A DNA stretch of 64,000 nt, from positions 1 through 64,000 of the IMG/VR virus record IMGVR_UViG_3300043444_000196; one strand, given 5' to 3'. The position numbers were made by a program, and so were the translations under genes. The notes beneath the pieces are model-generated. The model saw only the letters and a program-made list of their open reading frames with translations, did not search any database and was not told the origin of the DNA. The first letter of the stretch is position 1. Each line of letters opens with the position of its first letter. The DNA comes from a virus. This document shows positions 1 through 10,262 of the stretch, in pieces.

Positions 1-1
1 C

Positions 2-217
2 AGAGAAACCCCTGCCGCACAGCCCGAAGCCCCAGCCAAGGCCCCCAAAAAGCGCCAATCCAACGAGGCTCGCGACGCCCAGATCGCGGGCGAATACTTT
101 GCAGGGACGGTCACCTACCCCGTTCTGGCAGTCAAGTATGGGCTGTCGGTGGTGCGCATTGTGCAGATCGTGGCCAAGGCCCGGGCCCAACGGGCGGCAA
201 GTAATACAACCATCTAA
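2..217 (+). CDS. partial helix-turn-helix protein (C-terminal part)
   Basis: An open frame enters from the left edge and ends at TAA 215-217. The last 45 residues (pieces such as AGEYFAGTVTYPVLAVKYG and SVVRIVQIV) have the spacing of a helix-turn-helix: a helix, a G-L-S turn and a recognition helix. The upstream part is Ala/Pro/Lys-rich and looks like a linker. The stop codon lies inside the first palindromic site (213-224). I infer a DNA-binding role, possibly regulatory. The N-terminus is missing, so the family cannot be fixed. Confidence 0.6.
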   Translation, partial: RETPAAQPEAPAKAPKKRQSNEARDAQIAGEYFAGTVTYPVLAVKYGLSVVRIVQIVAKARAQRAASNTTI

Positions 218-700: not shown

Positions 701-729
701 TTGACAAGTGGCTAGTATTAGTATATAAT
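701..729 (+). promoter_or_regulatory. perfect sigma-70 promoter
   Basis: TTGACA at 701-706 and TATAAT at 724-729 with a 17-base spacer: a full match to the bacterial housekeeping consensus. It points right into the gene-poor stretch and then the early small-gene array, so it is the best candidate for the main early promoter in this window. Confidence 0.85.
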
Positions 730-738
730 AGAGTCATC

Positions 739-761
739 GAGTGGGGATTCGTTCTCCACTC
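739..761 (+). promoter_or_regulatory. boxB-like hairpin
   Basis: GAGTGGGGA and TCTCCACTC pair over nine positions with one mismatch around a five-base loop. It begins about 10 bases after the -10 box and lies before the boxA element, the same order as boxB-boxA in rrn leaders (lambda nut sites have the opposite order). Confidence 0.5.
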
Positions 762-790
762 GGCCACCAGCCTTTCATGTGTGCGGTGTT

Positions 791-802
791 TGTTCTTTAA
801 CA
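791..802 (+). promoter_or_regulatory. boxA-like antitermination element
   Basis: TGTTCTTTAACA matches the E. coli rrn boxA TGCTCTTTAACA at 11 of 12 positions. boxA RNA is the known binding site of NusB and NusE (S10). Position 60-75 bases into the transcript fits an antitermination leader. Confidence 0.6.
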
Positions 803-847
803 AGTTGTTCTGTTAGGTTTAACTGTAAGTATTTGGGTTCATGCCCA

Positions 848-859
848 TCTAAGGTTAGA
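848..859. repeat. palindromic site 2, TCTAAGGTTAGA
   Basis: Perfect copy, centre GG, inside the leader region and not in any gene. A weaker look-alike with one central base (CTAACTTAG) is at 967-975. Confidence 0.9.
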
Positions 860-1123
860 CCGATCAAGCCGTCGCTGGTACTCAAGACCAGAAGCCGACC
901 AGAAGGAATTAGGCTAGACCTGCGGGTATGAGATGAAGTGCACACCAAGCATGTGCACCGCCGCCCCTAACTTAGATATGTGATCTCTCCCCGTGGTGAA
1001 ACGAGACGTAGGGTATAGCCCCTGCATGTTGTGGCGTGTGAAGTAGTGCAGTGAGATAGGGACAGGCCAGTCACCTACTGCCGAAAAGCACAGCAACATG
1101 GAAATGATACGCATACTACTTAA

Positions 1124-1300
1124 ATGGGAGGGTTCCTCTACGTTAATCCGCACGAACCCTTGATGCTGGGACTGCCGCAAGCAGGATATATCAGCATGAC
1201 AAACTCTATCGTAGTCCAAGGACACCCAGCAATGGGTGGCATCCTGAAGAGCCTGAGCAATCGGGCTCTTTGTGATGTTGGCAATAGCGCCACCATCTAA
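1124..1300 (+). CDS. possible small protein (58 aa)
   Basis: ATG 1124 opens a 58-codon frame ending at TAA 1298-1300, inside palindromic site 3. An internal ATG at 1196 would give 34 residues and has an AGGA about 11 bases upstream; the longer start has no clear Shine-Dalgarno. Composition (Gly, Pro, Leu, Asn) is protein-like but nothing is recognised. It fills the gap before the gene array. The stop placed in the palindrome, as in three other genes, slightly favours it being real. Confidence 0.35.
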   Translation: MGGFLYVNPHEPLMLGLPQAGYISMTNSIVVQGHPAMGGILKSLSNRALCDVGNSATI

Positions 1301-1307
1301 TCTTAGA
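1296..1307. repeat. palindromic site 3, TCTAATCTTAGA
   Basis: Perfect copy, centre TC, ten bases before the ATG at 1318 and overlapping its Shine-Dalgarno region (AAAGG). Same placement as sites 1, 7 and 10. Confidence 0.9.
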
Positions 1308-1317
1308 AAGGCAACAC

Positions 1318-1587
1318 ATGGACACCCCACAATGGGAACGCTCCCAGCACAATGGCAGAGAACGCTGGAACTACGTGACGTACAGACCATACCCGTATGA
1401 CCCAGCCAACAAGTACCGCAATTACATCGGGTACATCACCAAGACCAAGAACAAACACCGGTGCCGAGACTGGCGGGTGTATACCACGACCGCTGACGTT
1501 TACAGCGAGTACGTGACCACAATTAAAAACCTCAAGACCCGCGACGCCAAGGCCGTAGCACAGCTGCTATTGGGAGCACAGCAATGA
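1318..1587 (+). CDS. small array-family protein 1 (89 aa)
   Basis: First gene of a run of small genes coupled by short overlaps. It is rich in Tyr, Arg and Thr and ends in a helix with the array pattern (RDAKAVAQLLLG), where an acidic residue and Ala precede hydrophobic positions. The middle part looks beta-stranded (W-R-V-Y). It overlaps the next start by ATGA. No catalytic motif; function unknown. It is the most diverged member, and its family membership rests mainly on the C-terminal helix and position. Confidence 0.7.
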   Translation: MDTPQWERSQHNGRERWNYVTYRPYPYDPANKYRNYIGYITKTKNKHRCRDWRVYTTTADVYSEYVTTIKNLKTRDAKAVAQLLLGAQQ

Positions 1588-1820
1588 AATTCACATGGGT
1601 TGTACACGACGGCTCACCAATGGCATCGTGGAACTTGTACCTGATGCAGGGCACAACAGCGATGAAACGCATGGGCACGATGTACCGCATAGAAGATGGC
1701 ACTTACGTGGTGCTCGAGCGTGGGTGGGAGGCCAAGCCACTCCTGATGGACGCCAGTCTAAGCTTAGAAGATGCACAACGCGCAGCCAAACTGTTGTTGT
1801 GTGCAGGAGTCACGTCATGA
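1584..1820 (+). CDS. small array-family protein 2 (78 aa)
   Basis: Starts MKFTWV, like the genes at 8799 (MKFTWK) and 1817 (MKIKWV). Short beta-type segments (TYVVLERGW) are followed by the typical last helix LSLEDAQRAAKLLLCAG. The palindromic site at 1757-1768 is read here as S-L-S-L-E, just before that helix. It is coupled by ATGA overlaps on both sides. Function unknown. Confidence 0.75.
   Translation: MKFTWVVHDGSPMASWNLYLMQGTTAMKRMGTMYRIEDGTYVVLERGWEAKPLLMDASLSLEDAQRAAKLLLCAGVTS
1757..1768. repeat. palindromic site 4, TCTAAGCTTAGA
   Basis: Perfect and fully symmetric copy (centre GC), inside the coding sequence of array gene 2. Confidence 0.9.
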
Positions 1821-2095
1821 AGATCAAATGGGTACAACCAAAGCGACAACGCGACGTGCACGAGCTGTCGATTGACAAGATAGACATGGGCTGGGTAGAG
1901 CCCTGCGCCGAGGGTGGGCTCATCGTGAGTTGCATGTGGATGAGTGACGCTAACGATAGCCGCGTGAAAGCAGGGCTCTTAGTTGCCACGGACTACCCCG
2001 AAGAACATACGTTTGCCACCGTCGAAGAAGCCAAGCACGCCCTGCTGGAGACAGCGACCGTGATGTACATCGGCGGGTGGAGGGGACGAGCATGA
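1817..2095 (+). CDS. small array-family protein 3 (92 aa)
   Basis: The start at ATG 1817 overlaps the previous stop (ATGA); a longer in-frame reading from 1595 would overlap the whole previous gene. N-terminus MKIKWV, then strands containing S-C-M-W, then the C-terminal helix with TVEEAKHALLETA, the clearest form of the array motif (T/S-x-E-E-A-x-x). A short Trp/Arg-rich tail follows. Function unknown. Confidence 0.75.
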   Translation: MKIKWVQPKRQRDVHELSIDKIDMGWVEPCAEGGLIVSCMWMSDANDSRVKAGLLVATDYPEEHTFATVEEAKHALLETATVMYIGGWRGRA

Positions 2096-2421
2096 TTCAA
2101 CACTACCCAGACTTTGACGCTGACCGAGAGGAAGCTCTTTGGGAAGACTACTCATCCAAGTACGACGTGGTGCGTGACGGCATGTGGCGCAGGATATTCG
2201 AGGACGCTGTATCGTGGCAGCCCGACTACCTCAAGGAAGATAGCGTATCCCATTGGGACTACGGCGTGTGCAAGTACGCGTTCGTGCCGGGCTTTCATGT
2301 GGTGCAGTTCGACGATGGCGCCGACGATCAAGAATACATCCTGTCATCACACAAGACACTGCACGAAGCAATGGGTGTATGCAAAGTTCTGCTGGCCAAT
2401 GGCGGGGTGCACTATGACTGA
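2092..2421 (+). CDS. small array-family protein 4 (109 aa)
   Basis: ATG 2092 follows GGAGGGG and overlaps the previous stop. The longest array member: an acidic, aromatic N-terminal part (D/E/W/Y-rich) precedes the common core FHVVQFDDG and the helix TLHEAMGVCKVLLANGG. It ends in VHYD, encoded by CACTATGAC, a junction sequence repeated at the end of the next gene. It overlaps the next gene by eight bases (ATGACTGA). Function unknown. Confidence 0.75.
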   Translation: MIQHYPDFDADREEALWEDYSSKYDVVRDGMWRRIFEDAVSWQPDYLKEDSVSHWDYGVCKYAFVPGFHVVQFDDGADDQEYILSSHKTLHEAMGVCKVLLANGGVHYD

Positions 2422-2647
2422 CCAGAAGGAGCGGTATTGGCTTGAAGGGTTTGGCGGTCGCACGCATACGTTAATGCAGGCCTTTCGTAGCTTGGGGCGC
2501 GTGAGCTGCGTTCGCCCATTCAGTGCATACACCGTGTTTGTACGTCGGCAACAAGGCGAGCCGATGGAATACGTAGCGCAAGTGGGCACACTCGAAGAAG
2601 CACAAGGCCTGCTGATGACCATAGCCGGGAGCACACACTATGACTAA
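2414..2647 (+). CDS. small array-family protein 5 (77 aa)
   Basis: Begins at ATG 2414 within ATGACTGA. Core YTVFVRRQ, then VAQVGTLEEAQGLLMTIAG, then the ending THYD. Both this gene's start and its end use the same CACTATGACT junction, so it looks like a duplicated cassette. Function unknown. Confidence 0.75.
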   Translation: MTDQKERYWLEGFGGRTHTLMQAFRSLGRVSCVRPFSAYTVFVRRQQGEPMEYVAQVGTLEEAQGLLMTIAGSTHYD

Positions 2648-2903
2648 GGCATCTAAGCTTAGCTGGGGGCCCATAGGTGGGAACACTACCAAGCTGTATG
2701 CGGCAATTATCGACATGTGGTCAGCCAATTACCCGGTTGGCGCGGTGTCGCGCATCAACGTGGTGTGCTACCACGCATTTGTCAGGCAACACCTGTACGA
2801 ACCCCTGCAATTCATGGCGTCATTCCCCACACGAGAAGAAGCTATGGACTTCGTAACCCTCATGGTAGCGAACACAGACTATGGAAGAAACCTTCAAGCC
2901 TAA
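2640..2903 (+). CDS. small array-family protein 6 (87 aa)
   Basis: Starts at ATG 2640 in the second copy of the CACTATGACT junction. The near-palindrome at 2652-2663 encodes S-K-L-S at residues 5-8. Core VSRINVVCYHAFVRQH, then the helix TREEAMDFVTLMVANTDYG. It overlaps the next gene by 23 bases. Function unknown. Confidence 0.75.
   Translation: MTKASKLSWGPIGGNTTKLYAAIIDMWSANYPVGAVSRINVVCYHAFVRQHLYEPLQFMASFPTREEAMDFVTLMVANTDYGRNLQA
2652..2663. repeat. palindromic site 5, TCTAAGCTTAGC (one mismatch)
   Basis: Near-perfect copy, last base C instead of A, at codons 5-8 of array gene 6. Confidence 0.75.
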
Positions 2904-3168
2904 ATGGCAACGCAACAACGCCGGGGGCTACTCACTCATGATGTGGGCACCAGACAATCCGATCATGCTGCACGGCCAAGTGGCGTACACACGCCCCGGG
3001 TACTGGCGTGGCGTGGCCGATGTATTCAAAGCCAAGAAGGGCAACCGATGGGTGGCCCGGTGGCTGGCCCATGAGGGCCTGCACATCAACTGGCGCCAAG
3101 GCAGCACACTCACACTGCGAGAAGCTATGCGGCTCGCTCAATTCATGGCGGGGCTACATCATGTCTAA
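2881..3168 (+). CDS. small array-family protein 7 (95 aa)
   Basis: Starts at ATG 2881, 23 bases inside gene 6. A basic, Trp-rich middle (KGNRWVARWLAHEGLHINW) precedes the C-terminal helix TLREAMRLAQFMAGL. Its end overlaps the next start by eight bases. It fits the array pattern of strand-rich N-terminal half and E-A helix. Function unknown. Confidence 0.75.
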   Translation: MEETFKPKWQRNNAGGYSLMMWAPDNPIMLHGQVAYTRPGYWRGVADVFKAKKGNRWVARWLAHEGLHINWRQGSTLTLREAMRLAQFMAGLHHV

Positions 3169-3382
3169 GTACGTATGGTCAACGCTGCACAGCCAAGAGC
3201 ACTACAAGGTGGCGCGCACATTCAACGATGTGCATGGATGGGTCGTGCTGATTGACGGGTGGTGGATAGCCCGAACATCCGACGGCGCCATCCGCGCCGA
3301 GTTCAAGACCGAGCAAGAAGCCACCGACTTCATGAACCTGATACTGACAACGAAAGGAAACGACGATGTCTCATTACCATAA
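3161..3382 (+). CDS. small array-family protein 8 (73 aa)
   Basis: Shortest clear representative of the family and a useful reference: hydrophobic strands GWVVLIDGWWIART, then AEFKTEQEATDFMNLILTT. Start at ATG 3161 chosen because upstream in-frame codons overlap the whole previous gene. It overlaps the following zinc-ribbon gene by 17 bases. Function unknown. Confidence 0.75.
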   Translation: MSKYVWSTLHSQEHYKVARTFNDVHGWVVLIDGWWIARTSDGAIRAEFKTEQEATDFMNLILTTKGNDDVSLP

Positions 3383-3578
3383 CTTGATCTGCACCACATG
3401 TTACGCAGAGCGTATTCCCCCTGCCCGTGCTCGCCTCGGGTACATGACATGCCTGTCATGCGGTGAGAAAGCTGCATCTAAGGTTAGACACACTGTTGTG
3501 AATTTGAATAAGTCGAATTACATGTTGTTCACTGACCTTGAACAACTGAAACAAACCAACCCCAAGAGAACGATATGA
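3366..3578 (+). CDS. small zinc-ribbon protein (70 aa)
   Basis: Two CxxC knuckles, CTTC at residues 9-12 and CLSC near residue 29-32, suggest one bound zinc ion. The start has AAAGGAAACGACG upstream. The palindrome at 3477-3488 is read as S-K-V-R right after the second knuckle. Such mini-ribbons are common in phages, often binding nucleic acid or RNA polymerase, but no role can be assigned here. It interrupts the run of array-family genes. Confidence 0.75.
   Translation: MSHYHNLICTTCYAERIPPARARLGYMTCLSCGEKAASKVRHTVVNLNKSNYMLFTDLEQLKQTNPKRTI
3477..3488. repeat. palindromic site 6, TCTAAGGTTAGA
   Basis: Perfect copy, centre GG, within the zinc-ribbon gene. Confidence 0.9.
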
Positions 3579-3796
3579 ACAACGAGCTGTGGGGTATCGC
3601 AGGTAAGGGGAAATGGCGATATACCCGCCACGAACCTAACACCTACCGATGGGACGAAGCACTCATTACATGCACCGCCGCGCAAGAATGGCACCTATTC
3701 ATTAACCGCCACCACGTAGGCACGTTCAACTCATGGGAAGAAGCACGAGACGCCACGCCCATGATGATCTCACTTCACGGATACCAAGGACTCTAA
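3575..3796 (+). CDS. small array-family protein 9 (73 aa)
   Basis: Coupled by ATGA to the zinc-ribbon gene. Core EWHLFINRHHVGTF followed by NSWEEARDATPMM, the array helix with W before E-E-A. It ends in a short aromatic tail. Last member of the contiguous array. Function unknown. Confidence 0.75.
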   Translation: MNNELWGIAGKGKWRYTRHEPNTYRWDEALITCTAAQEWHLFINRHHVGTFNSWEEARDATPMMISLHGYQGL

Positions 3797-4856: not shown

Positions 4857-5918
4857 ATGAAAGTAACTCTCGCCCAAGCCTCTACCCTGATTCGCAACGT
4901 CGGTACATCCAATACCCTCTTGTTGCGCGGTCAACCCGGTATTGGCAAGTCATCCATCCTCGGCGATCTGCAACGTGAGCTGCCCGATTATCAAGTGTGC
5001 TACATCGACGTGGCCAACCTTGATCTGGGCGACCTCGGCATGCCTGTGATCGACAAGGAAAGCATGACGACCAGCTACGCACCCAACACTCGATTCGGTG
5101 TTGGCAAGAACTCCAACAAGCCTGTCGTGCTGATGCTCGACGAGCTGGGCAAGGCCAGCCGCCCTGTGCTGAACATGCTGCTGCCTGTGATTCTTGAGCA
5201 TCGTATCGGTGACGTGCCGCTGCCTACTGGCTCGATCGTGTTCGGTACGACTAACCTCGACACCGACGGTGTGGGTGACAACATCCCAGCCCATGCGTTC
5301 AACCGTATGACTGTGGTGACCGTGGCCAACCCGACTGCTGACGAGTGGCTGCAATGGGCGAGCAACAACGACGTGGCTCCCGAGATCATGGCGTTCGCCA
5401 AGCAATTCCCCCAAGTGTTTGATTGCTACGCTGACCTCGACAAGAAAGAGAAGAACCCCTACATCTTCAACCCCATGACCGGCAACATTCGTGCGTTCTG
5501 TTCGCCGCGTTCACTGGCCAAGGCCAGCAACCTGATCGCTCAGCGTGATGTGCTCGGCGCTGCGATGCTGCCAGCTCTTGCCGGTACCGTAGGCGAAGCT
5601 GCTGCCCGTGACATGGAAGCCCTTGTCAATCTGGCTGACCAACTGCCGCTGTTCGAGAACATCGTGCAAGCCCCGGGCAAGACCAAGGTTCCTTCGAGTG
5701 TCGGCGCCCTGTTCATCCTTGCCTTCATGCTGGCAAGCCGTGTGGATGCAGACACGCTCGATGCAGTGATGGAATACGCTGAGCGTATGGGCGAGCAATC
5801 ATTCGAGGCGCACGCACTGTTCATCACATCCTTGGCAACCAACAAGTCCAAGGTAGGCATGGCCTGTCGCAATCGTAAGTTCACCAGCGCAGCCGCCAAG
5901 CTGGGCAAGTACTTCTAA
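4857..5918 (+). CDS. MoxR-type AAA+ ATPase
   Basis: Single AAA+ domain: Walker A GQPGIGKS at residues 25-32, Walker B VVLMLDEL with D95-E96, sensor-1 GTTN near 130-133 and an Arg-finger candidate near R150, then a helical lid domain. This layout is that of the MoxR/CobS group, chaperone-like ATPases that work with a VWA-domain partner to load metal or remodel a target. Such a partner is encoded at 7619 and a DUF3150-like protein at 11412. All three share the leader AAGGAAACACCATG, supporting matched translation. The target is unknown. Length (353) is normal for the group. Confidence 0.9.
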   Translation: MKVTLAQASTLIRNVGTSNTLLLRGQPGIGKSSILGDLQRELPDYQVCYIDVANLDLGDLGMPVIDKESMTTSYAPNTRFGVGKNSNKPVVLMLDELGKASRPVLNMLLPVILEHRIGDVPLPTGSIVFGTTNLDTDGVGDNIPAHAFNRMTVVTVANPTADEWLQWASNNDVAPEIMAFAKQFPQVFDCYADLDKKEKNPYIFNPMTGNIRAFCSPRSLAKASNLIAQRDVLGAAMLPALAGTVGEAAARDMEALVNLADQLPLFENIVQAPGKTKVPSSVGALFILAFMLASRVDADTLDAVMEYAERMGEQSFEAHALFITSLATNKSKVGMACRNRKFTSAAAKLGKYF

Positions 5919-6136
5919 TGCGCTCGGGGTACATGTACATGATGCCCCTTGATAGCGGCCTGTACGCCCTATGCCCGACGCGACTTTGGTATGCGCCGTG
6001 GCTGTGGAATGTATACGCCTATCAAATCAACGGGCTGTACGTAGACGACCGACAACCAATCGCGTCTAAGGTTAGACGCGACGAAGCCTACGGCCTCATG
6101 AAAATACTTGGGGCTCTCAACTTGGATTGGAGATGA
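5918..6136 (+). CDS. small array-family protein, outlying copy (72 aa)
   Basis: ATG 5918 shares its first base with the ATPase stop (TAATG). Tyr/Trp-rich N-terminal half with strand NVYAYQINGLYV, then RRDEAYGLMKILGAL, an array-type C-terminal helix. The palindrome at 6065-6076 is read as S-K-V-R just before this helix, the same relative place as in array gene 2. Function unknown. Confidence 0.7.
   Translation: MRSGYMYMMPLDSGLYALCPTRLWYAPWLWNVYAYQINGLYVDDRQPIASKVRRDEAYGLMKILGALNLDWR
6065..6076. repeat. palindromic site 9, TCTAAGGTTAGA
   Basis: Perfect copy, centre GG, inside the 72-residue gene. Here the symmetry extends outward: CGCG on the left and CGCG on the right. Confidence 0.9.
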
Positions 6137-7618: not shown

Positions 7619-8797
7619 ATGCAAGTAGCTGACCGTATCAAGAAAGCGCACATCTCGATCATGCAGCACAAGAAGTTCTGTGCGTTCTCAGGCATCCTAG
7701 CCTGTGGCAAGGTCACGGTGAGTGACGTCGTGCCGACCGCTGCAACCGACGGCTGGAACGTCGTGTACAACCCCACGTTCGTCGAAGCGAACATGCCCAC
7801 TGACCCCGAGCTGCGATTCCTCGTACTGCACGAGGCAACACACAAAGCCTATCGTCACATGGTGACGTGGCGCAAGCTGCACGAGGAAAACGCCATGCTG
7901 GCCAACGTAGCAGCCGACCACTTCGTTAACCTGCACCTGCAAGATACGGACGCTGGCGAAGGCTTTATCAAGATGCCCAAGCTCGGCATCCAACCCGACC
8001 CCAAGTACCGTGGCTGGTCGGTAGCCATGATCTACCAAGACCTCAAGAAACAACTGGAGCAACAACAGCAGCAGCCCCAAAGTGGCGACGGCGAGGGTAT
8101 GGACGAGCATGACTGGAATGGCAACGAAGCCAACGGCGACGCGGCCAAGGAACAAGCGCAAGCCGACGAAATCCAACGTGCTATCCGCCAAGGCGAGATC
8201 ATGCGCAAGAAGATGGCAGGCAAGGGCGCAGGCAATGAGGACGGTGTGTTCGGTGACCTCATGGCCCCCAAGATCGACTGGCGCAAGCTGCTGCGTGAGT
8301 TCGTGACCGAGTACTGCGCAGGCCGTGATGAGTCATCGTGGCGCAAACCCAACCGTAGGTACCTGAGCCAAGACATCTACATGCCCACTATGGTCGGCAC
8401 TACTATCACCCGCTTGGTTGTCGGTATCGACACGTCGGGTTCGGTGTTCAATTCCCCTGAGATGGATCAGTTTGCATCTGAGCTGCGCAAGATTGTGGAA
8501 GACGTGCACCCGCAGCTGATCGACGTTGTGTATTGGGACACGGAAGTGGCCGGGCACCAGACGTTCGAGGACGGCCAGTTTGCAATCCAGAACCTCAAAC
8601 CAAAAGGCGGTGGCGGCACCGACGGCAGCGTACTGTTCAAGTACCTGCGCGAGAAGAATATCAAGCCTGACGCCATCGTGCAGTTGACCGACGGTTATGT
8701 GGGTGACTGGGGCAGCACGGACATTCCGACGCTGTGGGGTATCACAACCAACGGCATCTCGGCGCCGTTCGGTACATCAGTACACATCGAGGTGTGA
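7619..8797 (+). CDS. metallopeptidase-like / VWA domain protein
   Basis: The N-terminal domain has a zinc-protease signature HEATH at 71-75 followed by A-A-D-H near 98-101, as in the DUF2201 metallopeptidase-like family. A Gln/Gly/Asp-rich linker covers about 145-215. The C-terminal VWA-like domain has a complete MIDAS: DTSGS at 271-275, T334 in GGGTDGS, and D358 in QLTDGY. VWA proteins of this kind act as substrate adaptors for MoxR ATPases; the ATPase is at 4857. Leader AAAGGAAACACC matches those of the other two module genes. Whether the peptidase part is active is unknown. Confidence 0.88.
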   Translation: MQVADRIKKAHISIMQHKKFCAFSGILACGKVTVSDVVPTAATDGWNVVYNPTFVEANMPTDPELRFLVLHEATHKAYRHMVTWRKLHEENAMLANVAADHFVNLHLQDTDAGEGFIKMPKLGIQPDPKYRGWSVAMIYQDLKKQLEQQQQQPQSGDGEGMDEHDWNGNEANGDAAKEQAQADEIQRAIRQGEIMRKKMAGKGAGNEDGVFGDLMAPKIDWRKLLREFVTEYCAGRDESSWRKPNRRYLSQDIYMPTMVGTTITRLVVGIDTSGSVFNSPEMDQFASELRKIVEDVHPQLIDVVYWDTEVAGHQTFEDGQFAIQNLKPKGGGGTDGSVLFKYLREKNIKPDAIVQLTDGYVGDWGSTDIPTLWGITTNGISAPFGTSVHIEV

Positions 8798-8798
8798 C

Positions 8799-9098
8799 AT
8801 GAAATTTACTTGGAAGAAGTACAGCGAGCACGACGACCAGCCTGAAGATATTGATCTGTATCTAACCTTAGATGACGGACGTTGCGGGCTGGTGGCGTTT
8901 GTTCGCCCGGTTTACGCAGAGCGTTTGAACTTCGCCCCTGAATACCGCGACAAATGGCTTGCACGCAGCATGTTGGGGGACTTCGTCGACGAGAACAAAC
9001 CGCTGAAAAGTAAACGTGCAGCCATGCTCAAGTGCCGCAGGGAATTTCCCGTGCTGTGGATTGGCGCCGACCCGGAGAAACGCGATGAACTCTTCTAA
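8799..9098 (+). CDS. hypothetical protein (99 aa)
   Basis: ATG 8799 comes one base after the VWA stop. N-terminus MKFTWKKY resembles the start of array gene 2. The palindrome at 8861-8872 is read as L-T-L-D. The C-terminal half is basic and helical with KCRREFPVLWIGADPEKRDE. It lacks the E-E-A helix, so only a distant link to the array can be suggested. Function unknown. Confidence 0.7.
   Translation: MKFTWKKYSEHDDQPEDIDLYLTLDDGRCGLVAFVRPVYAERLNFAPEYRDKWLARSMLGDFVDENKPLKSKRAAMLKCRREFPVLWIGADPEKRDELF
8861..8872. repeat. palindromic site 11, TCTAACCTTAGA
   Basis: Perfect copy, centre CC, within the 99-residue gene. Confidence 0.9.
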
Positions 9099-9543: not shown

Positions 9544-9948
9544 ATGGGATACAGAAGCGATGTAGTAGCGCTGATCTACCCGGACATGACACACGACGGG
9601 GACGATAGCGTGGCAAAGTACGAACAACTCAAGACGCTGATGAACACGAGATTCAAGCAGTTGGTGGACGATTTTGGCTCGTGCATGGAGTGGATAGACG
9701 TGGACCAAGTACTCAAGTTCGACATCAAGGACATCAACTGGTACTCAACCGCCTCGGGCGTCATTCGGTTTGAGGACATGCTCGCTACGCTCAACGGCGA
9801 CCCTAACGACGGTGATGACGTCATAGGCGGGTATTGCACAGAGTTCGTTCGGGTTGGCGAAGAATCCACTGACGTAGTTCAAGATCACGTCGGCAATAAC
9901 GTGCAGTTCTACCTGAACGTGAGCCACAGCATAGATTGCAACGTATGA
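9544..9948 (+). CDS. conserved phage protein, MGYRSDV type (134 aa)
   Basis: Begins MGYRSDVVALIYP, an N-terminus seen in a family of small phage proteins of unknown function. Acidic (many D/E) with alternating strands and one central helix (TRFKQLVDDFG). The wide spread of the family in phages suggests a small adaptor or inhibitor, but I know of no proven role. It overlaps the next gene by ATGA. Confidence 0.75.
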   Translation: MGYRSDVVALIYPDMTHDGDDSVAKYEQLKTLMNTRFKQLVDDFGSCMEWIDVDQVLKFDIKDINWYSTASGVIRFEDMLATLNGDPNDGDDVIGGYCTEFVRVGEESTDVVQDHVGNNVQFYLNVSHSIDCNV

Positions 9949-10262
9949 GCCATCTAAGCTTAGACGACTTCGAGTGGGTGGAGGCAGGCTTCGACAACTG
10001 GAGCCTTATGCACAAGACCCGCAACTTCACGATTGCACTCATCAACAACTTCAACGGGTGGCATGTGCAGGTTCTCTTTGATGCGAGCCAGAAAGCCCCC
10101 CTCCACGTCGATTCACTCGACGCAGCCAAAGCATTGGCGCAAATGACAGCAGCACCAAACATGGAGCAATATCATGAGTACATGCGTTCGCGAGCTTACA
10201 GCCGCAGAATTAAAAAAGACGGACCGCCGTCGTTTCGATCGCGAGTATTCCAAGTGGACTGA
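9945..10262 (+). CDS. array-related protein with basic tail (105 aa)
   Basis: ATG 9945 in an ATGA overlap; palindromic site 12 starts at codon 4 and is read L-S-L-D. Residues 20-70 resemble the array proteins: NFTIALINNFNGWHVQVLF, then VDSLDAAKALAQM. A basic tail (SRAYSRRIKKDG) is added. It overlaps the next gene by 89 bases, so the tail may be young. Function unknown. Confidence 0.65.
   Translation: MSHLSLDDFEWVEAGFDNWSLMHKTRNFTIALINNFNGWHVQVLFDASQKAPLHVDSLDAAKALAQMTAAPNMEQYHEYMRSRAYSRRIKKDGPPSFRSRVFQVD
9953..9964. repeat. palindromic site 12, TCTAAGCTTAGA
   Basis: Perfect symmetric copy at codons 3-7 of the gene starting at 9945. Confidence 0.9.

Follow-up and report, generated by a model that had tools for sequence, protein, structure and literature searches.

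The DNA analysed here, referred to as the window, comprises 64.0 kb (positions 1 to 64,000) of the 67.5-kb virus record IMGVR_UViG_3300043444_000196, which derives from an uncultivated freshwater-type phage. Near its left end, positions 1318-3796 hold ten plus-strand open reading frames (ORFs), each overlapping the next end-to-start, and nine of these (g1 to g8 and g10, 73-109 codons) make up a tandem array whose products share one plan, a beta-meander followed by a C-terminal helix (Table 1). The coordinates, sizes and common plan agree with the original prediction, which had been drawn from the DNA letters; the tenth ORF (3366-3578) is set apart here as an embedded zinc-ribbon protein, since its best hhalign probability to any array family was 2.7%. 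Few small genes are conserved as widely in this phage group as the zinc-ribbon gene (30 loci), and its product shows a weak likeness to DksA-like zinc fingers (E 0.09). Plus-strand genes for early functions and replication occupy the left 28 kb of the window, and minus-strand genes for structural proteins occupy its right half. The portal protein shares 38-43% identity with those of Pelagibacter HTVC023P, Planktothrix Pag-Yong1 and related podoviruses, and the DNA of cultured phages gave no match to the array-side early region. As a comparison set, 42 related loci (L001-L042) were gathered via the MoxR-type ATPase gene at 4857-5918.

Table 1. Features of the early region, in window positions unless stated; percentages given for g2 to g12 are hhalign probabilities
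Feature	Position	Strand	Remarks
Regulator gene, RHH/HTH type, 3' end	1-217	+	start at the other record end, about 67309-67498; full gene in L001 (500-907) and L082
Sigma-70 promoter TTGACA-17-TATAAT, head of early operon	701-729	+	12 of 12 consensus positions
Large structured non-coding leader RNA	735-1290	+	about 560 nt; boundaries estimated from promoter and alignment
Palindrome TCTAAGGTTAGA within leader RNA gene	848-859		
Palindrome directly before g1	1296-1307		
g1	1318-1587	+	89 residues; placed by position and L022 orthologue (44%); weak profile link to other units
g2	1584-1820	+	78 residues; 76% to g5, 81% to the L022/L031 array family
Palindromes inside coding sequence	1757-1768 (g2), 9953-9964 (g12)		encode L-S-L-(E/D)
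g3	1817-2095	+	92 residues; 66% to the 8799 gene, 94% to the L026/L027 family
g4	2092-2421	+	109 residues, consistently acidic; 42% to g7
g5	2414-2647	+	77 residues; 93% to g8, 90% to g6
g6	2640-2903	+	87 residues; tandem neighbour and paralogue of g5; 90% to g5, 85% to g8
g7	2881-3168	+	95 residues, consistently basic; 42% to g4
g8	3161-3382	+	73 residues; 93% to g5
Zinc-ribbon protein, embedded non-member	3366-3578	+	four Cys; 30 orthologues; without profile link
g10	3575-3796	+	73 residues; best match g5 at 32%; homologue in the array of independent contig L074
g11, outlying, membership unproven	5918-6136	+	top profile match is an unrelated control
Outlying member missed by the original prediction	8799-9098	+	66% to g3; homologues within the arrays of L007 and L009
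g12, probable distant member	9945-10262	+	41% to array-type family c27, 9% to g5; LDAAKAL motif
TCTAAnnTTAGA, exact sites	14 at 213-21837; 3 at 66633-67120 of the record		
TCTAAnnTTAGA, one-mismatch sites	2652, 11073		

The C-terminal helix that had first drawn attention to these genes carries the motif [TS]xxEA within the last 45 residues in seven of the nine array proteins and in only 2 of 146 control small-protein families of the same phages; g1, which ends in the helix-like segment TRDAKAVAQLLLG, is without it. With a looser form of the motif the counts were 8/9 and 5/146, and Trp content was 4.2% in the array against 1.7% in the controls. Because the motif was picked after the array proteins had been viewed, the fair comparison is with the control frequency and not by a P value. 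In a motif-independent test, each array family was aligned by hhalign with the others and with 77 control families of the same genomes (89 candidates). The best hit fell inside the set for 7 of the 12 array-type families, where about 1.5 would be expected, and for four of the remaining five it was a family whose members belong to the array in related phages. On these profiles, g2, g5, g6 and g8 are firmly tied together (76-93% over 22-63 columns), and the link between g4 and g7 is moderately supported. For several pairs involving g1, g4, g7 and g11 the alignments are short and C-terminal, as would be seen if unrelated small proteins had converged on a common helix motif and shared nothing else; the rarity of the motif in controls of the same size and genomes, the longer alignments within the core and the predicted folding of g4, a member of the weakly linked group, to the plan of g5 make such convergence highly improbable.

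The junctions between genes also carry shared sequence. The g4-g5 and g5-g6 junctions have an identical overlapping ACTATGACT start and the g6-g7 junction has a similar one (ACTATGGA), which fits unit-wise duplication. At the L022 orthologue of g1, both flanking units end in a common GAQQ stretch (LIAGAQQ/LAGAQQ); this support for the membership of g1 is soft, because the codons of the stretch also supply the following gene with its Shine-Dalgarno site and overlapping start. Two outlying copies had been proposed, at 5918 and 9945. Profiles lend weak support to the latter (g12) and none to the former (g11), and they add an outlying member at 8799 that had been missed.

The AlphaFold model of g5, built with an alignment, has five strands and then one helix (predicted local distance difference test, pLDDT, 88; predicted template modelling score, pTM, 0.76), and that of g4 has a six-strand meander and then a C-terminal helix (pLDDT 81, pTM 0.71). 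Between these two confidently modelled members, whose likeness was judged on the strand/helix plan without superposition, no difference of fold was seen, and one fold common to all array members is likely on this modelling. Against solved structures (PDB), the g5 model found nothing significant by fold, and profile searches gave chance-level matches only. The OspA/OspB sheet-plus-helix and YkuJ were considered as fold relatives and set aside as generic fold matches (E above 0.06). Against predicted viral proteins, the g5 model gave many uncharacterised matches, mostly of about 60-110 residues and from diverse tailed phages, one of them at E 8e-4 and the others weaker, N4 gp8 included. Because the matches are so many and so widely spread, the meander-plus-helix appears from the models to be a common fold of small phage proteins, including many of early type; the array would be a tandem expansion of it. 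A homologue of a phage anti-restriction nuclease (BFVD rank 50, E 0.15) was too weak a match and was not used.

No described family was expected to fit these proteins, and the searches bear this out. Neither Pfam nor NCBIfam gave an array match above its curated cut-off, the best PADLOC match (E 0.0098) was below cut-off, and the best PHROGs match, found for g2 only, was to phrog_18965 (E 9e-4), a family labelled as of unknown function. One orthologue each of g5 and g2 found no credible match by tblastn in 50,697 phage records, and a scan of viral contigs with g4 matched solely contigs of the same phage group. To judge from these comparisons, none of the libraries searched describes the array protein superfamily.

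The repeated duplication and fast change postulated for the array can be followed in the relatives. L022 keeps the order g1, g2, g3, g4, g7, g8, zinc ribbon, g10 but lacks g5 and g6 and has additional units in between. Identity to this phage is 70-94% for most neighbouring genes but 44-57% for the array genes that have an orthologue there; the others have none. Homologues of g3, g7, g8 and the 8799 gene occupy differing early positions across relatives, and in L074, a contig found independently, the same leader RNA is followed by units resembling g10 and g7. Most array units are neutral or acidic. Net charge is kept within each array family and differs between families: g4 has -13 (orthologues mostly -3 to -13) and g7 has +7 (orthologues +6 to +11). 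Such family-specific charge would fit units that each have their own partner, and not copies that all repeat a single function. The wide range in unit number among relatives, from 0 to about 10, and the fast divergence might also be read as marks of near-neutral accessory genes, that is, products of duplication whose functions are weak, redundant or a matter of dosage and which persist since small ORFs cost little. We think this quite improbable, given that the frames are open and tightly overlapping in all relatives having units, that even widely diverged members of a family keep its charge and residues (PFVP.YH and KTL..A in g4, for instance), and that the units remain beside the strongest promoter.

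That promoter, at the head of the early operon, is the sole full sigma-70 consensus match within 14 kb, and in the window no coding block comes between it and the array. About 22 relatives have a counterpart promoter immediately following the regulator gene. By this arrangement of genes and promoter, expression of the array would be immediate-early, a position behind a strong promoter that it would share, by anatomy, with anti-defence genes. Between the promoter and g1, the sequence at 735-1290 is conserved, and a protein-coding nature was rejected, as every frame is broken by indels and gene calls leave this stretch empty in the relatives compared. RNAalifold with 21 homologues gave 48 consensus pairs, 38 of the 48 with two-sided compensatory change, and 91.9% of cells were paired. 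In the controls, slid pairings gave 34-42% paired cells and 10-16 two-sided pairs, column-shuffled alignments were essentially without structure, and for the 3' domain 0 of 500 shuffles reached any of the five observed covariation measures. A covariance model of this 3' domain found one copy per locus in 28 loci, many of them outside the model-building set, and copies in 8 further contigs found by motif, giving a single copy in at least 36 related contigs. In Rfam 15, cmscan of the leader found none at the gathering threshold and two chance-level matches to unrelated families (E up to 5), and at blastn sensitivity the leader RNA was not found in cultured phages. Judged by its covariation, it represents, with near certainty, a new family of large phage RNA that is absent from Rfam, and it may act as a leader controlling early expression or as a stable RNA of its own.

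The regulator gene directly precedes the early promoter in nearly all relatives having one. Its product has weak PHROG matches to transcription regulators (E 0.005), with an N-terminal RHH-like and a C-terminal HTH-like segment read from the sequence. Because the gene runs over both ends of the record (from L082 at the record end, 67498, into window positions 1-217) yet is whole in L001, the record represents a genome that is circularly joined or permuted. Before the regulator lies a second long non-coding region (L006 1928-2890, L007 4315-5035 and equivalents; about 66.4-67.3 kb of the record), which has GTTAC/GTAAC repeats and short AG- and GT-rich runs and is a possible origin or operator region. 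The analysis applied to the leader gave 5 two-sided pairs and an energy of -1.7 for this gap, which ruled out a structured RNA like the leader there.

Dispersed through the same region is a 12-bp palindrome, TCTAAnnTTAGA, with 17 sites in the 67.5-kb record and 0 for a reversed control pattern. All sites fall within the stretch that runs from 66.6 kb across the record ends to 21.8 kb, which is the early region only, and four other long records have 11-15 sites each, likewise clustered. The half-sites differ by lineage (TCTAA, TTTAA, CTTAA, TATAA, TTAAC and CGTAA), with a spacing of 2 and, in one, of 3. Several sites lie inside coding sequence, and the one in g2 encodes part of the conserved array helix, so that putative operator and protein motif overlap. 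In the TTTAA phages examined, the upstream regulator has VRVGQI or VRIGQI as its putative recognition helix; in the CTTAA phages examined, this helix is IRVHQI. We infer that the palindromes are operators of a putative repressor, and the regulator upstream of the promoter would be the best candidate to bind them.

Lying directly behind the RNA and among the palindromes, the array units could themselves bind nucleic acid in the service of the phage, as regulators or RNA chaperones, for example by partnering the leader RNA or by modulating the palindrome-based switch. Meander-plus-helix folds include DNA- and RNA-binding domains, and g7 is strongly basic. This explanation is unlikely in our judgement, given the neutral or acidic character of most units, the better regulator candidate upstream and the persistence of both the RNA and the palindromes without the array in L014, L016, L019 and L023, from which the two are independent of the array.

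Among the neighbouring genes, 7619-8797 encodes a VWA/metallopeptidase-like protein that matches phrog_1314 (E 3e-87), a family labelled 'HNH endonuclease'; the label looks wrong for this protein, and N4 gp25 bears the same one. A scan of bacterial genomes for a host with the VWA protein as query found no relative, and there are no tRNA genes in the window. In relatives, genes judged by eye to be of HNH type adjoin the early array (L010 3094-3639, L022 5508-5990), as does an HNH plus AP2-like gene in L012 (2224-2505). The HNH-type genes near the array are placed as homing endonucleases would be.

Overall, we lean, with slightly better than even confidence, to the explanation that the array encodes early host-directed binders which have diverged to different targets, in host take-over or counter-defence. 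Such a role explains the locus best because the array genes come first behind a perfect sigma-70 promoter, and the case for it draws on promoter position, turnover and a fold-only resemblance to N4 gp8. Host RNA polymerase would start at the promoter at 701-729 and transcribe the structured leader RNA and then the array, whose gene overlaps would couple translation, and paralogous single-domain proteins with an antiparallel beta-meander and a C-terminal helix would be made at the very start of infection. Each unit would most likely bind a different host protein; some may block defence enzymes and others may redirect replication, transcription or metabolism, while host-derived selection would drive the duplication, divergence, loss and relocation of units.

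Several results weigh against a host-directed role. The profiles of g1 and g11 are not tied to any array family by hhalign, and no array protein matches a known effector in Pfam, NCBIfam, PADLOC or PHROGs. The link to N4 gp8 is one of fold only: Foldseek placed gp8 at template modelling scores of 0.69/0.74 and E 0.065 to the g5 model, among more than 1000 weak matches, and it fails at the sequence level, where the g5/g6/g8 profile gave an hhalign probability of 0.4% over 7 columns. We rejected gp8 as a sequence relative and kept it as a fold analogue. Finally, in L014, L016, L019, L020 and L023 the promoter and RNA are present with no array unit detected directly behind them, by which the array is dispensable in that lineage.

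Phage N4 reportedly makes a clamp-loader inhibitor, as a 2011 title by Yano and Rothman-Denes, cited in PMC4496689, has it, and we take gp8 to be this inhibitor of the DNA polymerase clamp loader. It is a small early protein (71 residues) whose predicted fold may resemble that of the array units, and in both phages a series of short, overlapping early genes precedes an AAA ATPase gene and a VWA-type gene. The early genes of N4 differ in that they form no recognisable paralogous array, and they are transcribed by the virion RNA polymerase, not from a sigma-70 promoter (PMC4496689). In archaeal viruses, anti-defence genes were found via a conserved strong early promoter signature (PMC11065993). 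The locus described here resembles those islands in that its small, variable genes directly follow such a promoter and have a putative DNA-binding regulator nearby; in contrast, the phage is not archaeal, its units belong to one paralogous superfamily and their anti-defence role is putative. The stoperators of cluster A mycobacteriophages are 13-bp, asymmetric, oriented sites bound by a monomer (PMC9283540). Like them, the palindromes are short sites with many dispersed copies per genome, some within genes and some in between; their sequence varies with the lineage, and a repressor-like gene lies next to them. They differ in being perfect 12-bp palindromes and in occurring in the early region only. 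The leader resembles GOLLD and ROOL as a long, elaborately covarying phage RNA, and differs from them in its length of about 560 nt, its place at the head of an early operon, its lack of an Rfam match to either and a window without tRNA genes.

Diversified early effectors are already a known kind, and what the libraries searched do not describe is the protein superfamily of the array. Whether the host-type promoter, the new large RNA class and the fast-turnover effector array, under one repressor whose operators are rewritten in step in each lineage, together constitute a new immediate-early module is to us an even question. Inhibitors of bacterial enzymes and of defence systems are abundant among early phage proteins, most of which have no family; a tandem array built on one fold offers a defined set of candidates and a means to recognise more. 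The operator site, present in at least six lineage-specific versions, could be used to read the recognition code of the repressor, and the module exposes a large, covariation-supported RNA that is not in Rfam.

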